From contig JAUSZU010000001.1 of NCBI GenBank assembly GCA_030817875.1, forward strand, positions 992,001 to 1,056,000: a stretch of 64,000 bases of DNA, read 5' to 3'. Positions 54,502 to 63,505 of this stretch are shown in pieces. Positions within the stretch are counted from its first letter, which is position 1, and the number at the start of each line of letters is the position of its first letter. The stretch is from Flavobacterium sp. W4I14 (GTDB lineage: Bacteria > Bacteroidota > Bacteroidia > Sphingobacteriales > Sphingobacteriaceae). Position numbers and translations under genes: made by a program. The notes under the pieces were generated by a model, which searched no databases, was not told the origin of the DNA, and was given only the letters and a program-made list of their open reading frames with translations.

Positions 54502-56250
54502 ATGAAAAAATGCGCTGTTGTTATCGGAGTAAATAAAACGGGTAAACTACCTACGCTTTCTGCTGCGGCAAGTGGTGCAAGAGATTTTGCAGCATGGGCG
54601 AAATCGCAGGATTATGATACTGTTTTGCTTACAGATGAAGGTAAGGCGGTATCTGTCAAGGAGATCAAGGCCGCTATCAGGAATTTTGTTGATAAGCAGG
54701 CTTATGGTTCAATGATCATTTTTTTCTCTGGACATGGTATCCTGAAAAGTGCTTTAGATGAGCAGTGGCTGCTTTCGGATGCTCCGGATGACCTCAATGA
54801 GGCGGTGAATGTTCAGCCTTCATCCATGTTTGCGAGAAGGTCGGGAATTCCGCATATCGTTTTTATTTCTGATTCCTGTAGATCCAGGCCGGATAATCCG
54901 TTGCTGAGTGAAATGCTAGGGTCTGTAATCTTTCCAAATATTGAACCGAAGGATCAACAGGTTGATTTAGATATGTTTTATGCGGCTAGTCCTGGAAACC
55001 CAGCGCATGAGGTTGCTACCGATGTTTCATTCAAAAATTTCAAGGGTATTTACACAGAATGCATGCTTGAAGCACTCTATGGTAAAGTCCCCGAGGTTAT
55101 GAGAAAAATCAAGGAGAGGAGAAAAGAGTTTAATGCTGTTATGCCTTATGAGCTCAAGATGTATTTAAGTAGGGCTGTACCAACTGCTGCGGAAAAGATT
55201 AGCATCAGGCTCAGTCAAAATCCACATTCAGAAGTAACTTCGAGAGATCCAAAGCACCTTTCGAAATTTGCAATTGAAAGGCTTGATGCACCTTCAATGG
55301 AGTTAATCAACTGGAACAGTAGGCTTGGCCATAAGTCCAAAGAATTGGAAGAACCATTGATGCATTCTAGCCCACCTAAGTCTTTAGACAGGTTGATTAA
55401 ATATAATGATGTCTTTGACATGGAAGTGAAGATGCATGAAGAATTGGAACTGTTGCCATTGACGGAAATGATCTTGAGTGCAAACGATCTCCCCATTGGT
55501 GATTTTGAATCCGGTTTTGTGATTACTGGGTTAAATTTCATGGATCAGGTTATTCCACTTAATGATTTCGATGTAACACTTGCAGATGGGTATTTTCTTA
55601 TAGGTCTGAAAAAAATGTCTAGAAAGACACATCTGCTATGGAAGTTGCCAAATGGTGGCAGTGTGCCTTTTGCTGTACTGAAAGGTTATGTTGGAGTGGC
55701 GGTCTTTAAAGAAGATACGCTTGTCAATATTAATTATAGGCCGAGCGGGTCGAATCCCTTTTTTCCTAATACCTATATTCCATCTGGATTGGAAAAAAAA
55801 CGGGCGCTGATCGCTGCTAAAAGTTCGCATGGGTTATTCCGTATCTCGGAAGATAAAGACCGGTTGATCAGTTCTGCCAGTTATCTTCGAAGTGATAAGA
55901 AATACGATCCTACACTTGGGCTGTACTCAGCGTACGCTTATGCCCAGGCAGGGAGTATGAATAACGTCGCTTCCGTATTTTCTTATATGAAAAAGGAATC
56001 TACCAGGATACCATTCGATGTGGCCATGCTGTATGAGTTCTCAGGTATTGATATAAATGTGGATCTGGGTATAATAAGCTCACCGTTCTGTCCTATGCTT
56101 AGTCAGGGTTGGTCATATTTGGCAGTTGATCCTGACCGGTTTGATAAAGAACTGATTTGGCTGAATAGGCATAGGGTACCTGGGCTCTGGACGACATTTA
56201 CAAAAGAGGGTACACGCTTAGTTGAAGAACGTTATAATCAAGGGGAATGA
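54502..56250 (+). CDS. Caspase-like protease (peptidase C14), 582 aa
   Basis: The N-terminal 230 residues are a caspase-fold domain. MKKCAVVIGVNKTGKLPTLS starts it, catalytic His78 lies in IIFFSGHGI and Cys126 in IVFISDSCRS, with LLSDAPDDLNEA between. The remaining 350 residues include beta-rich segments (SGFVITGLNFMDQVIPLNDF) without a recognised fold, perhaps the sensor or substrate-recruiting part. Its stop overlaps the hydrolase ATG as ATGA. Bacterial caspase-like enzymes activate effectors, such as gasdermins, by cutting them in antiviral cell-death systems. Here the natural targets are the co-encoded hydrolase or the neighbouring membrane protein; inferred. Confidence 0.8.
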   Translation: MKKCAVVIGVNKTGKLPTLSAAASGARDFAAWAKSQDYDTVLLTDEGKAVSVKEIKAAIRNFVDKQAYGSMIIFFSGHGILKSALDEQWLLSDAPDDLNEAVNVQPSSMFARRSGIPHIVFISDSCRSRPDNPLLSEMLGSVIFPNIEPKDQQVDLDMFYAASPGNPAHEVATDVSFKNFKGIYTECMLEALYGKVPEVMRKIKERRKEFNAVMPYELKMYLSRAVPTAAEKISIRLSQNPHSEVTSRDPKHLSKFAIERLDAPSMELINWNSRLGHKSKELEEPLMHSSPPKSLDRLIKYNDVFDMEVKMHEELELLPLTEMILSANDLPIGDFESGFVITGLNFMDQVIPLNDFDVTLADGYFLIGLKKMSRKTHLLWKLPNGGSVPFAVLKGYVGVAVFKEDTLVNINYRPSGSNPFFPNTYIPSGLEKKRALIAAKSSHGLFRISEDKDRLISSASYLRSDKKYDPTLGLYSAYAYAQAGSMNNVASVFSYMKKESTRIPFDVAMLYEFSGIDINVDLGIISSPFCPMLSQGWSYLAVDPDRFDKELIWLNRHRVPGLWTTFTKEGTRLVEERYNQGE

Positions 56251-57119
56251 AAGTTATTATGATACATGGCCGCGATCAGCAGGGACAGGATCCTTCGGCT
56301 TTAAAGAAAACTTGGATAGACACTTTTGAAAAAGGTCTCACAATTCAGGGTCTGGCAATTCCATCCGATTTAGATTTTGTGTTTCCGTTTTATGGTGATC
56401 TTCTGGATGGACTGATAAGAGAAGTGGCAGATCCGGCAACTCTCGATGGTGTGATTGCCAAGGGAGATATCGTTCCGGGAGAACTTTCTTTCTATTATGA
56501 CCTAGTCAACGAACTAGCTGAACAGGCAGGCGTTACTGATGCACAAATCAGTGAGCATTTTAAAGCTAATTATAAAGAGCGTGGGGTGTTGAACTGGGAA
56601 TGGGTGCAGTCTATTTTAAAGGTACTGGATCGGAGTAGCGGCATGGGAGATTTTTCGGTTCGGAAGTTTACTTATGATGTCTTTATGTATTTAACGGTAC
56701 CTGCTATTAGGAAGAAAATCAATGAATTTGTTTTGAGTGCTTTTAATGAAGAACCTTCCGTAGTAATTGGGCATTCTTTGGGTTCTGTTGTCGGTTACGA
56801 CGTACTTCGGAACAATGATTTCCTGAATGTTAAAAAATATATCACCATCGGTTCTCCTTTGGGTGTAAAAGCGGTTAGATCAAAATTAACGACGCCCCTT
56901 GTGATGCCTGAGTGCATAGAGAGTGGATGGTATAATGCCTATGATGAACGTGATTTTGTTGCGCTAAAGCCGCTGGATGAGCGGAACTTTAGTGTTGAAC
57001 CATCTATTGTTAACAGTAACCATGTCAAGAATCAAACAGATAATAGACATGGTATTGAAGGGTATCTCAATGACGCTGTTGTGGCGAAAGAAATCTATGA
57101 TGCTTTGGGAGATAGATGA
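56247..57119 (+). CDS. Alpha/beta hydrolase (lipase-like), 290 aa
   Basis: KVIMIHGRDQQGQDP at the start is the oxyanion region of alpha/beta hydrolases; the nucleophile elbow is VVIGHSLGS with Ser177. YNAYDERDFVALKPL gives a candidate acid and NRHGIEGYL a candidate His, completing the triad. A helical insertion at residues 60-140 may cover the active site. No signal peptide, so it acts in the cytoplasm. It is translated directly after the caspase-like protease and could be its regulated effector (lipid or ester cleavage); substrate unknown. Confidence 0.75.
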   Translation: MKVIMIHGRDQQGQDPSALKKTWIDTFEKGLTIQGLAIPSDLDFVFPFYGDLLDGLIREVADPATLDGVIAKGDIVPGELSFYYDLVNELAEQAGVTDAQISEHFKANYKERGVLNWEWVQSILKVLDRSSGMGDFSVRKFTYDVFMYLTVPAIRKKINEFVLSAFNEEPSVVIGHSLGSVVGYDVLRNNDFLNVKKYITIGSPLGVKAVRSKLTTPLVMPECIESGWYNAYDERDFVALKPLDERNFSVEPSIVNSNHVKNQTDNRHGIEGYLNDAVVAKEIYDALGDR

Positions 57120-57138
57120 GCAAGATCGAACAATCGAG

Positions 57139-58854
57139 CTATTTTCCGGCATATTTTCTGAACGCTGCAATGGTCTGATAAACACCGTAACCGACAAATA
57201 TCCTTGCCAGCATTATCACTAGGAATGCCTTCCATCCATCGGCCTGCTCTAGCTGGGACTTATATAGAGGGAATGAGGCTAAAAATTCAGAAAAGGAGTC
57301 AATACCAACGTGTATGGCATATCTTGTTTGTGTGAACGTATATTTTAAGGAGAAGCTGAATAGGGATGACTTTAGGCTGATTTCGAATATGATATACATT
57401 AACAACGATATGGTTAGTGTAAAAAATATGCCTCTGATCCAGCTTAATCCATGATTGTTAGAGATGTAGTTAAGATTGAGTAGGATTTTGTCCCATCCCC
57501 AGCTAGTTTCTTTCCTCAGGTAGTGCATTTCCCTTGATTTATAAAGTAGCGCTGCACTGCGGTTTCCCTGTTTTTCCATTGCCTGTTTTAACTGTCGGTA
57601 GTTTTCTCTGTGATAGGTGTTGTCATTGATCTTTTCATCTGTTGGGATCTCGTAACCATATTTCGGGTCACGGGTGCCAATCTGGATCCTGGGAGGAAGA
57701 ATAGAGTTTGAAAGGATGATATTGCTTACTTCGCTTCTGGCGATAACGAGTTCTCCAAATTTTCTGAAATCCACATTTACGAATTCAGTCCTATCGATGT
57801 TTGAATCGAATATAATCATCACGTGGTGCTGGTAGACCAGTCGAAGGTTGGCGAAGGTGAGCTTATTGTAATTGAGGAAATCTTTGATCGTTATGGTATG
57901 GGTTTCTGTATTCCGGAATACAATATTGCCGAAGTTACTGCATCCAACTGTGATGGAAGAGACGATGATGTCTTCGAAAATAATGTTTCCACGGATTACG
58001 CCACTGATATCGCAGGAGAAATAGTGATCTGTACTTCTGGGTGAATCACCTGATTTGTGGCATTCAAAACTGCTCTGAAAATCGCAATCGTTTATGGAAA
58101 CGCCAGAAATGTTCCCGTTACTGGACATACTGACGCGTTGTTTGGCTATTGTAGCACTAAGCGATATATAATCACAGCGAAAAAGTTCAAAAAATATAAG
58201 CATCTGGTTAAATGCTGTTCTGTGTGTATTTAATGATCCTCCGGAGTCTGAAGCTCTGAAGTCTACGCGCTCATTGAATGTGCAGGAGTCTATTGCCATC
58301 ATGTTAAACTTCAGCTGTTCACCTTCTAAGCTTACCGTACCGTTGAAAATCCCGGAAGAAAAGAATATGCGTTCAATATCGCAGTCTAGTAACGTTAGCG
58401 AGCTGTTAACCTCCTTGACTTTAAAGTTGATTTCATCAGCTGCTATCCTGCTTAATATCAACTCTGTCGGTGTGTCACTACTAAGATTTACATTTCCTGT
58501 GAAAGTGATCGTTTCATATTTTCCGCTAAAGAGTGCAATTTTCTGAAATACTGGACTGTTAAAAATTAGGTCATTCTCAAATCTACAGTCTATGAGAGTA
58601 ATGCTGGCTTGGAATTGACATTTGTTGAATAAAACGGCAGCCTTAAATGTGCAATTCATAAAAATCAAGTCGTTTTCGAAAATAGTCCCATTGAAGGTCA
58701 CTTTATCATCAAAAATGCAATTTGTGAGCCCTCTTAGGTTAGTCAACTCCGTATCTGTATAACTAATGGCTTGAGTAATGTGATAATCTTTGGCACCGCC
58801 TTGAGTAATCTCGCGACTAAATTTTAAAAAGGTTATCGATGAGGTGCTGGTCAT
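57139..58854 (-). CDS. Pentapeptide-like repeat protein with membrane tail, 571 aa
   Basis: Residues about 30-400 carry many strands of the A/F-L/N-x-x pattern (TNCIFDDKVTFNGTIFENDL, FMNCTFKAAVLFNKCQFQAS), as in pentapeptide repeat beta helices. Residues about 425-465 are a Lys- and Arg-rich helix (REMHYLRKETSWGWDKILLN). After residue 470 three hydrophobic segments follow (WIRGIFFTLTISLLMYIIFE, ending VIMLARIFVGYGVYQTIAAF). The gene is convergent with the caspase-hydrolase pair, 19 bp apart. It could be a membrane effector or a sensor; a channel is possible. Confidence 0.65.
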   Translation of the reverse strand: MTSTSSITFLKFSREITQGGAKDYHITQAISYTDTELTNLRGLTNCIFDDKVTFNGTIFENDLIFMNCTFKAAVLFNKCQFQASITLIDCRFENDLIFNSPVFQKIALFSGKYETITFTGNVNLSSDTPTELILSRIAADEINFKVKEVNSSLTLLDCDIERIFFSSGIFNGTVSLEGEQLKFNMMAIDSCTFNERVDFRASDSGGSLNTHRTAFNQMLIFFELFRCDYISLSATIAKQRVSMSSNGNISGVSINDCDFQSSFECHKSGDSPRSTDHYFSCDISGVIRGNIIFEDIIVSSITVGCSNFGNIVFRNTETHTITIKDFLNYNKLTFANLRLVYQHHVMIIFDSNIDRTEFVNVDFRKFGELVIARSEVSNIILSNSILPPRIQIGTRDPKYGYEIPTDEKINDNTYHRENYRQLKQAMEKQGNRSAALLYKSREMHYLRKETSWGWDKILLNLNYISNNHGLSWIRGIFFTLTISLLMYIIFEISLKSSLFSFSLKYTFTQTRYAIHVGIDSFSEFLASFPLYKSQLEQADGWKAFLVIMLARIFVGYGVYQTIAAFRKYAGK

Positions 58855-59466
58855 ATCTGTTTTGAATTATTCCGCTCTAATCTCGGAAAATGTAGGGTTA
58901 AACTAAACCTGAACTTATTAACAAATCCGTTTTGGTTTTCTTTTTTTGTGGTTAGTTCTGCTTTTGCTACGAATAATTTTCGGTTTTACCCAAAGCAGTA
59001 GTAGTATCATTCGTAGTGAAAATGCCTATCTATCAGGTCACTATCAGCTCATATAACGGCCAATTTAGGCCATTTCGGGCCAAAAATTTCATCCCGCTAA
59101 ATTACTGGATACGTTTGGTCAATGAAACGGGGTAACCTGTTTTAAGAATAACTGGATAACAATCTAAAAATTACCTGGATCCATGGTGTCGTCATCGAAG
59201 ATGCGGTTCCAAATGATCAAGTAAAAGATTCTCTTCAAAGGATAGTCTTTTGTGCTAACGAGAATAGATAGGTGTCATGCACCTGTTCTTTGAAATTGTG
59301 GGATGAAGCATTATTCCGTGAGGAGCGGAAAATTCTGCGAAGTTGAGATCATTTCAATATTACGAAAGCGCAGAGGCAGGCGACGGCCAGGTCAGTATAG
59401 ACTTACGTGAGTAATCCCGGTATACCTTATTGAAGACTTGTTTTTTTGTTTTTAGTTTAGGTGGGA
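58855..59466. other. Long intergenic stretch
   Basis: No supported gene. TAACCTGT-TTTAAGAA-TAACTGGA at 59133-59156 resembles the octamer repeats at 60123. The region may hold part of the transfer origin, because it lies before the MobC-like gene, but no nick site can be assigned by eye. Confidence 0.35.
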
Positions 59467-59489: not shown

Positions 59490-59699
59490 ATGTCCTGATT
59501 TTTAGTAAATAAACGGAAAGTCAATTTTACATATGTAGGAGCTTGCAAATAAACCTTTAGTTTTTTTATACCCGCAAGATGTCTTTTTGTCGGACAATAA
59601 TCCGGGGGATTATGCCCACAAAAAGAATCTTGCCCCAATGCGGAGCATTTGGGGGATGAGAAAACTCGCAACTCGTTTTCTCTTTTAGAAGATATTGGT

Positions 59700-60110
59700 A
59701 TGGAAGGAAAGAATAAACAGATCGGACGGCCTCACAAAAAAACCGGCAAAAGAACCAGAAAAATCAGTGTGCGGTTTTCGGAAGAAGAATTTAGTTCTAT
59801 CTTATCCCTAGAAAGACTTCTTGGGCTTAAAAGGACCGATATCATCAGAAAACGGGTGCTAGAGGTGAACCTTCAGTTAGTTTTTGATGGTCGTTCGGTT
59901 TTGGCGAGCATTGATCAGATAGGACTTGAACTTTCCAGGACCGGAAATAATATCAATCAACTTGCTAGGTACGCCAACATACTGAACAAGCAGCGGGTGC
60001 TCTCGCCGGTAATCTTTAGCCGGTATTATAAAGAGCTTGATAGACATTCCCTGCTATTACAAAATCTCAATCTGGAAATTAAGAAAATGATAAAAATGAT
60101 GGGTGGCTAA
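59700..60110 (+). CDS. MobC-like relaxosome accessory protein, 136 aa
   Basis: I chose ATG 59700 (MEGKNKQIGRPHKKTGKRTR); a TTG 51 bp earlier would add 17 poorly conserved residues. The middle (KISVRFSEEEFSSILSLERL) is a ribbon-helix-helix-like DNA-binding part. LELSRTGNNINQLARYANIL is the MobC (Bacteroidota MobA-type) signature. It would bind the transfer origin and guide the relaxase encoded 255 bp downstream. Confidence 0.8.
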   Translation: MEGKNKQIGRPHKKTGKRTRKISVRFSEEEFSSILSLERLLGLKRTDIIRKRVLEVNLQLVFDGRSVLASIDQIGLELSRTGNNINQLARYANILNKQRVLSPVIFSRYYKELDRHSLLLQNLNLEIKKMIKMMGG

Positions 60111-60122
60111 TCTTTTACGGTT

Positions 60123-60362
60123 AATATAGTTGTCTGTATAACCTGTTATGCTGTTTTATTGTTACTCTGTTATGCGGTTGCGGAACTTCAGCGTTAGCTT
60201 GCTAACCTGTTTGTAGTCTAACTGGTTATCTGGTTTTAGATGTAGCCCGAGAGCTAGCTATATTGCTAACCGGTTGTAGACAGTACGGTTTAGCTGCGAT
60301 GCCAGTTATCTTGTCCCTTTGTTTTAAAGTGATCTGGTGAGCAGGTTGCATAGTCGCTTAGT
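60123..60362 (+). repeat. Degenerate array of thirty 8-bp units
   Basis: The whole gap between the MobC-like stop and the relaxase ATG divides into 30 octamers in one phase. Positions 7-8 are GT in 19 of 30 units, where about two would be expected; position 1 is T in 22 and position 2 is A in 17. Examples: TAACCTGT (60139, 60203), TATGCTGT, TACTCTGT, TAACTGGT, TATCTGGT, TAACCGGT. The consensus is close to TA-N-C-T-G-G-T. Best guess is a relaxosome or partition protein binding array. Confidence 0.7.
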
Positions 60363-60365
60363 TAT

Positions 60366-61493
60366 ATGATCGTAAAGATACTCGGCTCCTCTGCAACTTT
60401 TGCCGGGGTAAGATATAACCATGAGAAGATGCGGTCTGGCAAGGGTGAACTTTTAAAGGTTCGGAATTTCGGTAGCCTAATGGGACTGGACAGGATCGGT
60501 CCACAGGATTATATTAATTACCTGAAAGCGGTTTCAAATGAAAATAAGAGGGTAAGTAAACCCCAGTTCCATGCGGTGATCTCTGCTAAAGGTAAATCTG
60601 TTTCAAAAGATGAGCTCTTGCATACCGCGGAAAAGTGGATGGCACAAATGGGCTACGGTGAAAATCCATATCTGGTGATCTTTCATACCGATACTGAAAA
60701 TAACCATGTACACATCGTATCGACCAGGATCGATAAGAACGGTAGGAAGACTTCTTCGGCCTTTGAAAAGCTCCGCTCAGTCAGGGCATTATCTATTGTG
60801 ATGAAACGTGAAAAGGCTGACCTGACAATGCTTGATAAGTTGTTGGGATATAATTTTGCTAGTGTTTCACAAGTACGTACGCTTCTGGAAAACTCGGGCT
60901 TTGAGGTCCGTTTTGAAAAAGAAAACATCGAAGTATCCCATTCCGGAGAATTGATTTCAACCTTAAAGGCTTCAGATATTGAATCTTTATGCCAGGATGT
61001 GGGTATCGATAAGAACAGGTGTCGACAGCTGAAAGCTATTTTTTCAAAAATACTGACCGAGAGGTTATCCAAGAATGATTTTTCTTCTCCAAAAACTGAT
61101 CTAAGAGCAGGACTACAGGAATTTTCCATGATGGTCAAAAAGAAGACAGGTGCTGAATTGATTTTTCACAGTAAAGACAATAAAATTCCCTATGGGTATA
61201 CCATCATAGACCATCCCGGTAAATCGGTGATGAAAGGTTCCGAAGTGATGCACCTTAGGGATATCATTTCGTTTTTGAATCTTGAGGATCAAAAAGATCT
61301 AATGCCTAAGGGCTACAGGATTTCTCTTGCAGACCCTGCCGTTGAGGTCAGTTATATTCTTTCTGCCTTGGAGGATGTTGGTTTCTACGAAGAGCCAATC
61401 AGGACATTTGATCTTCAGGAAGACATCGATGATGAGGCCATTCTTGGGCGCAACCGTCAACGAAAAGGCAAGGCCCGGACAAATACCCGTTAA
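60366..61493 (+). CDS. Relaxase/mobilization nuclease (MobB-type), 375 aa
   Basis: VRYNHEKM carries the YN-x-x-K motif with candidate catalytic Tyr17. FHAVIS gives His69 and NNHVHIVSTRID supplies His114 and His116, the H-x-H metal-binding motif of MOBP-type relaxases. A C-terminal region (residues 230-375) has no recognised domain. It nicks the transfer origin and covalently carries the strand into the recipient. The ATG follows directly on the octamer array. Confidence 0.9.
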   Translation: MIVKILGSSATFAGVRYNHEKMRSGKGELLKVRNFGSLMGLDRIGPQDYINYLKAVSNENKRVSKPQFHAVISAKGKSVSKDELLHTAEKWMAQMGYGENPYLVIFHTDTENNHVHIVSTRIDKNGRKTSSAFEKLRSVRALSIVMKREKADLTMLDKLLGYNFASVSQVRTLLENSGFEVRFEKENIEVSHSGELISTLKASDIESLCQDVGIDKNRCRQLKAIFSKILTERLSKNDFSSPKTDLRAGLQEFSMMVKKKTGAELIFHSKDNKIPYGYTIIDHPGKSVMKGSEVMHLRDIISFLNLEDQKDLMPKGYRISLADPAVEVSYILSALEDVGFYEEPIRTFDLQEDIDDEAILGRNRQRKGKARTNTR

Positions 61494-61512: not shown

Positions 61513-62151
61513 ATGCTAATTATTATTGGAAACCAGAAGGGAGGAGCGGGGAAAAGTACGCTCACCCTTTTATTGGCCAACTTTTTAACGCTGGTCAAAA
61601 GGCGGAAGGTGACCGTTATCGATATGGACTATCAGCAGTCGCTTTCCCAGAAATATGAAAAGGCCAAACTGGCTGAAACACCAGAGCATTATGAGATCAT
61701 TGCCGCCGGACTGGAACATTTTCCTTCCATGTACACCGTACTAAGCCAGAGCAGAGAACATATCGTGATCATTGATCTGCCCGGGAAACTGGATGATGAC
61801 GGGCTTATCCCGGTATTCAGTTCAGCAGATCTGGTACTGTGTCCGTTTTCTTATGACGAGTTCAGTTTCGATTCAACCGTTCTTTTTTCAGTCGTGCTGA
61901 AAAAGATCAACCCATCAGGGCATCTGGTCTTTATCCCGAACCGCGTCAAGGGAAATGTTAGGTATGATACAGCTACTGAAGTAGAACAACAGCTTTCTAG
62001 GTTCGGGAAAATTACGGCTCCGATATCCGACCGCGTGGATTTCCAGCGGACCGATACCGCCCAGACCCCCTTGTCCCTTTTTCCTGTCATTGTACCCGTA
62101 TTTGATCAGATCTACGCCGATCATATAGAAGCTACCGCAGTTAAAACTTAA
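61513..62151 (+). CDS. ParA-family ATPase (TraA-like), 212 aa
   Basis: Walker A of the deviant ParA type, GNQKGGAGKST (6-16), with both Lys; VTVIDMDYQQSL and IVIIDLPGKLDDD follow. In CTnDOT-like elements a ParA-like protein starts the tra operon. It may place the relaxosome or segregate the element. The small DUF3408-like gene follows with no gap. Confidence 0.9.
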   Translation: MLIIIGNQKGGAGKSTLTLLLANFLTLVKRRKVTVIDMDYQQSLSQKYEKAKLAETPEHYEIIAAGLEHFPSMYTVLSQSREHIVIIDLPGKLDDDGLIPVFSSADLVLCPFSYDEFSFDSTVLFSVVLKKINPSGHLVFIPNRVKGNVRYDTATEVEQQLSRFGKITAPISDRVDFQRTDTAQTPLSLFPVIVPVFDQIYADHIEATAVKT

Positions 62152-62517
62152 ATGCAATTTATGAAAGCAGGAATCAAAACGTTGGCCGATGAACTCAGAA
62201 AAAGCATCAGGCCACCTGAAATTATGCCTACAAATAAAGATCCCATTGAGCGTGATAAAAGTGCAGGCAAGGAGGGGAAAGGGATCAAAAAGGAACTGGA
62301 CATTATCATCCTGATCAGAGAGTTTGACTGTTCCGGCAATAACCACATGCTGCATCCCAGACTGAACAACAGAACAGTACAGTTGCTCAATAGGCTAAAG
62401 CTGGCTTCGGGCCTGGATATGAACCGGGTAATTGCTTTTGCCCTGCACCAGCTTTTTGAGCAGCATCCCGAAATTAAAAAGTTTATTAAGACATCATTAG
62501 AAAATTTTGAACTATGA
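62152..62517 (+). CDS. DUF3408-like conjugation protein (TraB-like), 121 aa
   Basis: The N-terminal half is a charged, probably disordered linker. The C-terminal part (NRTVQLLNRLKLASGLDMNR, VIAFALHQLFEQHPEIKKFI) resembles DUF3408, seen directly after ParA in Bacteroidota tra operons. A ribbon-helix-helix-like DNA-binding role is suspected. An alternative start is ATG 62161. Its 3' end overlaps the next gene as ATGA. Confidence 0.65.
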   Translation: MQFMKAGIKTLADELRKSIRPPEIMPTNKDPIERDKSAGKEGKGIKKELDIIILIREFDCSGNNHMLHPRLNNRTVQLLNRLKLASGLDMNRVIAFALHQLFEQHPEIKKFIKTSLENFEL

Positions 62518-62833: not shown

Positions 62834-63130
62834 ATGAAAGTAAGATGTTTGATGTTCATGGTCATCTGTGTGCTGACCTGGACTGTGGCTGGCGCACAAC
62901 CCGGAATTGCGGAAATGCAACAGGCTCGAAGTTTTATCAGGGAATCATTTTTTTCCATGAGGGACCTGTCACTTGTATTGGCTGCACTCATTTCGATTAT
63001 TGGCGCAGTCCATGTGTACCATAAGATGCAGATGGGGAAAGATGTGAGTGCCGATATCCCGGCATGGTTCTTTTCAGCACTTTTTATCATTGTCATCCAT
63101 ATTGTACTGGTGCACGTCTTCGGGCTCTGA
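62834..63130 (+). CDS. Small membrane tra protein (TraD-like), 98 aa
   Basis: A signal peptide (CLMFMVICVLTWTVAGAQ), then two membrane segments (LSLVLAALISIIGAVHVYHK and FFSALFIIVIHIVLVHVFGL). Its layout is like DUF4134 proteins and it may be a paralogue of the next gene. Second-last gene before a terminator-like hairpin. Confidence 0.6.
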   Translation: MKVRCLMFMVICVLTWTVAGAQPGIAEMQQARSFIRESFFSMRDLSLVLAALISIIGAVHVYHKMQMGKDVSADIPAWFFSALFIIVIHIVLVHVFGL

Positions 63131-63144
63131 GTCAAAGTTTCCTG

Positions 63145-63165
63145 ACCGCCGTAAGCGGTTTTTTT
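63145..63165 (+). terminator. Terminator or attenuator inside the tra operon
   Basis: ACCGC (63145-63149) pairs with GCGGT (63155-63159) around CGTAA, followed by six T. It lies 15 bp after the TraD-like stop and before the DUF4134 gene, so it may reduce downstream tra expression. Confidence 0.65.
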
Positions 63166-63196
63166 ATTTCATAACCATTCAATAAATCCCAATCAA

Positions 63197-63505
63197 ATGA
63201 AAAAAATCAAAAATTTAAGATTCATTATTTTTTTATACCTGTGCACGATCAATGGATACGTTATGGCACAGAGTGGAGTAAACGGCCTGAACACGGCTAC
63301 CAGCACACTTAAAACTTATGTAGATCCGGCAACCAACATTGCCCTGGTAATCGGTGGGCTGGTCGGCATTGTAGGTGGGATCCGCGTATATTCCAAATGG
63401 AACAGCGGAGATCAGGACATTAATAAGGAGCTAATGGGCTGGGGAGGCTCCTGTCTTTTTCTGGTTCTTTCATCCCTTATCGTTAAAGCTTTTTTTGGCC
63501 TGTAA
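63197..63505 (+). CDS. traE: DUF4134 conjugation protein, TraE
   Basis: A signal peptide (FIIFLYLCTINGYVMAQSG), then the DUF4134 core: GVNGLNTATSTLKTYVDPAT, NIALVIGGLVGIVGGIRVYS and the second membrane segment. This pilin-like (VirB2-like) subunit of Bacteroidota conjugation machines is known as TraE in CTnDOT. Its length and order are typical. Confidence 0.9.
   Translation: MKKIKNLRFIIFLYLCTINGYVMAQSGVNGLNTATSTLKTYVDPATNIALVIGGLVGIVGGIRVYSKWNSGDQDINKELMGWGGSCLFLVLSSLIVKAFFGL

Follow-up and report, generated by a model that had tools for sequence, protein, structure and literature searches.

In the window, i.e., the whole stretch of 64,000 nucleotides that was analyzed, a gap of 255 bp (60111-60365) that is phase-locked at 8 bp separates the genes mobA and relaxase, and the question is what such a gap is for. 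The upstream gene, mobA (59700-60110, plus strand), encodes a NikA/MobC-like ribbon-helix-helix (RHH) relaxosome protein, RHH1 (PF21983, E 6e-8; PF05713, E 1e-6); its ORF is open from a TTG at 59649, and the first ATG is at 59700. The downstream gene (60366-61493, plus strand) encodes a MOBP-type relaxase (PF03432, E 9e-20), a distant MobB of Bacteroidota that stays below the cut-off of NF041325 (E 2e-30). Next is a gene for a ParA ATPase with the deviant Walker A motif KGGAGKS (61513-62151, plus strand; CbiA, E 2e-11; ParA_partition NF041546, E 5e-19), of which the match to VirC1 (PF07015, E 2e-4) was weak and below the cut-off. Directly after parA lies the gene for RHH2 (62152-62517, plus strand), a protein predicted from a fold model with weak scores to be an RHH DNA-binding protein and proposed here to bind the gap. 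Two DUF4134 conjugation genes (62834-63505, plus strand) place the gap within a conjugative element. The region 5' of the mob genes (54502-58854) encodes a caspase-like peptidase, an alpha/beta-hydrolase-like protein and a pentapeptide-repeat membrane protein, which possibly have a cargo or defence role.

A sequence-only reading had proposed a strict 8-bp register for 60123-60362. Autocorrelation and a phase statistic bore this out, and the array is longer than claimed, because its limits could be extended to 60115-60365 (plus strand). It consists of about 31 contiguous units of approximately TATCTGGT, i.e., GTTA at every 8 bp, without a single phase break, and a cyclic HMM detected 0 frameshifts. 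The self-match of the gap was raised at shifts of 8, 16, 24, 32 and 40 only (z 3.6-4.6). The phase chi-square excess was 113.3, compared to a maximum of 39.8 among 5000 dinucleotide-preserving shuffles, and, thus, none of the 5000 shuffles reproduced the periodicity. The array was unique in the window: outside the gap, none of 15,858 stretches of 150 bp from the 64 kb reached z8 = 5, and the best had a z8 of 3.7. The recount of GT at unit positions 7-8 (19 of 30 units) and of T at position 1 (22 of 30) was exact, and the perfect copies TAACCTGT were found at 60139 and 60203. The similar run noticed at 59133-59156 is also real and corresponds to an inverted copy of five units at 59127-59166 (minus strand; PWM score 19.1, versus about 12 for the best unrelated site). 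Tandem Repeats Finder did not detect the window array, because its units are too divergent. A coding repeat was ruled out, since a period of 8 is not divisible by 3 and the gap contains no ORF of at least 60 aa. A structured RNA was also rejected, the fold z of the array being -0.5 and no Rfam family coming close to its curated score.

The same gap was compared in three Pedobacter loci (L032-L034), the relaxases of which are 89, 83 and 65% identical to that of the window. The homologous elements carry a periodic gap too. The gap lengths are 263, 263 and 247 bp, versus 255 bp in the window, so that all four are 7 modulo 8, and the phase z values of the three relatives were 16.5, 7.7 and 7.3. 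In a phase-locked alignment the window array was 94% identical to that of the nearest relative and 51-58% identical, i.e., near-saturated, to the other two, and the substitutions were only modestly uneven across the phase positions. In L006/L036 (relaxase 47-49% identical) the gap has 312 bp and a z of 20.7. The phase therefore outlives the sequence of the array, which supports the earlier proposal of selection on spacing. The alternative, a neutral tandem repeat that arose by slippage and then decayed through mutations, could explain the gain or loss of a single 8-bp unit that distinguishes the window from its nearest relative, but not that the phase was kept at 51-58% identity, and the recognisable near-identical units of such a repeat were not seen by Tandem Repeats Finder.

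To define the distribution of the array, 64 related relaxase loci of Sphingobacteriaceae were used, and an array was called at z8 > 7. It was present in 55 of the 64 loci, at most 2.5 kb 5' of the relaxase gene; for the control periods 5, 7, 10, 11, 13 and 14 the medians were near 3-4. The arrays have lengths of 136-580 bp and contain 17-72 units, mostly with 0-1 phase breaks in the cyclic 8-state HMM. Their location is either the gap between mobA and relaxase, a site about 0.4 kb 5' of mobA or, if a gene is inserted, a site some 2 kb 5' of the relaxase gene. The unit consensus varies by element, e.g., agATATaC, CTAATTAG, GTTAtct (window) or tGtTa..t, and the dinucleotide with the strongest phase lock is TA in 34 of the 55 arrays. 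In most arrays the unit appeared to be roughly palindromic (mean correlation 0.78, versus 0.58 for permuted columns), which is suggestive; palindromy was absent from four arrays of the mob-relaxase-gap class. In one locus (L093) a stretch on the 5' side of the relaxase gene, at a distance of about 2.96 kb, has a period of 7 bp (z 15).

The window also contains a candidate oriT (59574-59690; DNA fold z -5.4). It is composed of an imperfect inverted repeat, GCAAGATGTCTTTT..AAAAAGAATCTTGC, at 59574-59633, upstream of mobA, and a hairpin, GAGAAAAC-TCGCAACTC-GTTTTCTC, at 59658-59682, which has TCGCAACTC as its loop. At least one oriT-like motif was found in 63 of the 64 relatives, and a similar inverted repeat with the TCGCAACTC hairpin is present in an element of B. 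fragilis (L137:2930-2992) and is thus common to Pedobacter and Bacteroides. We infer that the inverted repeat is the transfer origin. Arrays 5' of the oriT-like repeat end at a median distance of 128 bp from it. In 13 of the 18 loci in which the array is more than 1.4 kb (1.4-2.1 kb) away from the relaxase gene, it lies 81-127 bp from the repeat, and, thus, the array moves with the oriT-like repeat and not with the relaxase gene. In ten loci, including the window, the array is 3' of the repeat, mostly between mobA and relaxase. The linkage is looser in some cases: the array of the window starts about 430 bp 3' of the repeat, and those of L085, L087, L089 and L092 are at a distance of about 1 kb from it. 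On the whole, the linkage agrees with the initial suggestion that the gap sits at a transfer origin or relaxosome site. At L081, units of about 21 bp (CTGCAAGATTTGTTTTGCCAC) form a nearly perfect tandem repeat at -760 to -665 from the relaxase gene, which directly precedes the oriT-like repeat and duplicates one of its arms.

Arrays were not confined to Sphingobacteriaceae. The CTnDOT-type sample comprised 19 MobB loci of several families that were above the NF041325 cut-off (L096-L114). A z8 above 6.5 was obtained for 16 of these, and two more had values of about 6. Where parA is present, the array is flanked by mobA on one side and by a divergent parA-DUF3408 operon on the other, and ParA-type and DUF3408 proteins are annotated in the Bacteroidales records. 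Arrays were also found on plasmids, i.e., B. fragilis pBFY46 (z 13) and p214_V8GG_COL1 (z 11.6) and those of B. ovatus BFG-107 (z 14.2), Prevotella nigrescens (z 19.7) and Pedobacter (pA27BH1, z 9.5), and a Parabacteroides plasmid was marginal (z 6.0). In pBFY46 (L136:974-3141) mobC is separated from the relaxase gene by an ISBf3 transposase gene that adjoins the array, and the phase is kept on the relaxase side. No array was detected in Pontibacter Paks1 and on a Persicobacter plasmid; Pontibacter has a ParA, yet no 8-bp array. The 19 MobB-like loci without an adjacent ParA-RHH2 pair (L116-L134) also had no array (best z8 4.7), and several of them do have a detectable MobA relative. One of these (L127, C1:2750304-2751545) is a second MobB-type relaxase locus of the genome from which the window stems.

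RHH2 had no Pfam match of its own, a profile search of the PDB yielded nothing, and hhalign found no homology between MobA and RHH2. The full-length model had a pLDDT of 51 and was too poor for use. The C-terminal 68 residues reached a pLDDT of 79 and form an extended segment followed by three helices. The top structural matches were mostly RHH proteins (CopG, Arc, MatP, antitoxins). Their scores were low, which may be expected for about 43 aligned residues, and no Foldseek E was below 1. RHH2 occupies the position that is held by DUF3408 in Bacteroides elements; the strand-helix-helix regions of the two could be aligned weakly (E 0.036), and BLASTP gave no match. RHH2 is predicted to be an RHH protein with strand-helix-helix topology, and an RHH fold and a corresponding role are predicted also for DUF3408.

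Next, the presence of the array was compared with that of ParA. In 103 loci, both were present in 69 cases and both absent in 21, while nine loci had only ParA and four only the array (Fisher p 3e-11, which is optimistic, as the loci are related). Three of the nine ParA-only loci had a z8 near 6, one (L059) looks degenerate, and the other five (L058, L064, L076, L079, L082) have arrays with a pitch of 15 bp in the last 180-300 bp before the relaxase gene. Their z15 values of 4.1 to 19.8 are the top five of all 64 loci, L064 being weak at 4.1. Exactly these five loci encode an RHH2 in which the predicted strand is followed by QTAQ. Since their MobA proteins belong to the KIDARF type and are close to those of L036, L038, L044 and other 8-bp loci, the pitch follows RHH2. 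For the neutral repeat these results are again difficult, because array presence is tied to ParA-RHH2 and dozens of elements have different unit sequences, but one pitch. Slippage followed by drift, which the sequence-only reading had offered as an alternative, is thus unsupported as a complete account, since under drift the phase would be lost, and neither the presence of arrays nor their unit sequence and pitch would be linked to RHH proteins; a purely neutral origin is highly improbable.

It was less clear which of the two RHH proteins the unit sequence follows. In Sphingobacteriaceae, motif distance correlated with the distances of RHH2 (0.41), MobA (0.37), relaxase (0.28) and ParA (0.26). 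Given RHH2, the correlations were 0.00 for relaxase, -0.10 for ParA and 0.21 for MobA, and RHH2 retained 0.27 given MobA. When only the RHH domains were used, MobA was slightly better than RHH2 (partial correlation 0.42 versus 0.30). Reading by hand had indicated that the unit sequence follows RHH2 alone, but this was not upheld by the domain-level statistics in this family, and L081 is an exception, having RHH2 and MobA of the ATAT type, yet an array of the AATTAGC type. In 16 CTnDOT-type loci the correlation was 0.27 for RHH2 (p 0.010), 0.13 for MobA (p 0.14) and 0.19 for ParA (p 0.04), the last becoming negative given RHH2. The Sphingobacteriaceae data thus speak no less for the RHH domain of MobA than for RHH2 as array binder. 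Binding by this MobC-like protein is possible: MobA would then occupy the array as an extended accessory site of the relaxosome, and ParA-RHH2 would be a passenger of the operon. MobA is a Pfam-confirmed RHH protein that adjoins the array, and the partial correlation of its RHH domain given RHH2 fits this scenario. However, the mob loci with a MobC-like protein but without ParA-RHH2 lack arrays, the CTnDOT-type motif is tracked by RHH2 and not by MobA, and the 15-bp pitch goes with an RHH2 subgroup and not with a MobA type. We regard the MobA scenario as unlikely, and RHH2, a protein that the sequence-only reading had not named, as the better candidate and the likelier, though not proven, array binder.

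Taken together, the array is probably a contiguous cis site for an RHH protein, most likely RHH2, and a ParB-parS-like partner of ParA beside the transfer origin. The gap is therefore read, from the precedents of pSM19035, VirC1/VirC2 and R388, as the DNA component of a ParA-RHH complex at the transfer origin, and we infer binding, cooperativity, ParA activation and an effect on transfer. About 31 contiguous 8-bp sites would each be occupied by one RHH dimer, most likely of RHH2. Because adjacent dimers would have to touch, the spacing would be under strict selection, and single units could be weak and free to drift; in a cooperative chain of small dimers each contact would be weak and replaceable, but the spacing would not. 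The filled array would serve as partner of the ParA ATPase and adjoin the transfer origin, and the array-bound ParA would position the element and dock the relaxosome at the secretion channel, like VirC1/VirC2 at overdrive. Partition of the excised element and autorepression of the operon may be further functions of this complex.

Two simpler roles have to be weighed against this ParB-parS-like role at the transfer origin. The array could be a plain partition centromere (parS) of the excised or replicating element without any role in transfer, as ParA, an RHH protein and contiguous repeats are the anatomy of pSM19035 (PMC9499535) and some array carriers are plasmids. However, the array is always located in the mob region, often at a fixed distance from the oriT-like repeat, and about 2-3 kb from parA in the displaced class; in addition, partition and transfer roles are compatible, as in R388 stb and NAH7. 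A role in partition only is thus rather unlikely. Alternatively, the array could be an operator for repression of the mob/parA operon. It is 5' of, or within, an operon that contains or faces parA-RHH2 in the layouts that were inspected, and par centromeres commonly serve as operators too. Arrays of 136-580 bp far exceed the need of a repression operator, however, and no Bacteroidota promoter-like pair was found inside the window array, so that an operator role is quite improbable.

A tentative extension, in which we have considerably less confidence, is that the pitch is set by the structure of the RHH protein and the unit is an element-specific address, by which ParA-RHH would recognize its own element among co-residents and deliver only its relaxosome, and that the arrays form an undescribed class in Bacteroidota. 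CTnDOT-type elements and related ones disseminate antibiotic resistance and other genes among gut Bacteroidota, and we know of no reason why ParA and DUF3408 proteins are encoded beside their mob genes. The arrays give these proteins a concrete candidate DNA partner, and a candidate RHH-ParA array may help DNA transfer between cells, also for elements of gut Bacteroides. In addition, a natural series of arrays with many unit sequences and two pitches may help to work out how RHH proteins set the spacing of their sites.

RHH proteins on sites spaced by 8 bp are known from the met boxes of MetJ and from ParG/parH of TP228, and met operators have a TA step at the box junctions. In both cases the sites are far fewer than in the arrays and lie outside transfer regions. 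No description of such arrays in Bacteroidota was found in open full-text papers, most subscription journals being outside the scope of the search. As far as searched, long arrays phased at 8 or 15 bp that are spread over conjugative elements of Bacteroidota, and in which unit and pitch covary with RHH proteins, are thus undescribed in open papers, and their parts are of known kinds.

In form the array resembles the centromere of pSM19035, and in setting the overdrive of Agrobacterium. On pSM19035, delta/omega parS consists of 7-10 contiguous 7-bp repeats bound by an RHH-type ParB, which needs at least four contiguous repeats for ParA activation, and gaps abolish activation (PMC9499535). A ParA ATPase, a small protein that is predicted here to be of the RHH kind and unspaced contiguous repeats are shared, and the window array contains at least four contiguous unspaced repeats (about 31 units without phase break). 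In contrast to pSM19035, the pitch is 8 bp (or 15 bp) instead of 7 bp, there are 17-72 degenerate units, the arrays are situated in the mob region of conjugative elements, and the unit is element-specific; the pSM19035 unit WATCACW is not matched by the window unit. In Agrobacterium, overdrive is the binding site of VirC1, which acts with VirC2 to promote the assembly of the relaxosome and its docking (PMC4285021, PMC4949242). The likeness comprises a ParA-like protein with a small partner, a putative enhancer by the relaxase site and the context of type IV secretion (PMC4285021). The ParA of Bacteroides pBFY46 scored 25.5 bits against VirC1 (PF07015), which is over the cut-off of 24. Pfam and PDB sequence searches revealed no relation between RHH2 and the VirC2 family, with which it would share only the predicted RHH-like fold; furthermore, the arrays are much longer than overdrive. 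StbA of R388 is a binder of repeats beside oriT that connects stability and transfer, so that, together with the ParA-like StbB, a repeat-binding protein and an ATPase are again found beside oriT (PMC3098194); the stbDRs, however, are two sets of five 9-bp repeats with 2-bp spacers and not a contiguous array of 8-bp units. Partition proteins, i.e., ParB and ParR, stimulate transfer also in NAH7, via sites at or near oriT, but these are 18-bp inverted repeats with a KorA-like ParR and without a phased array (PMC12421886).
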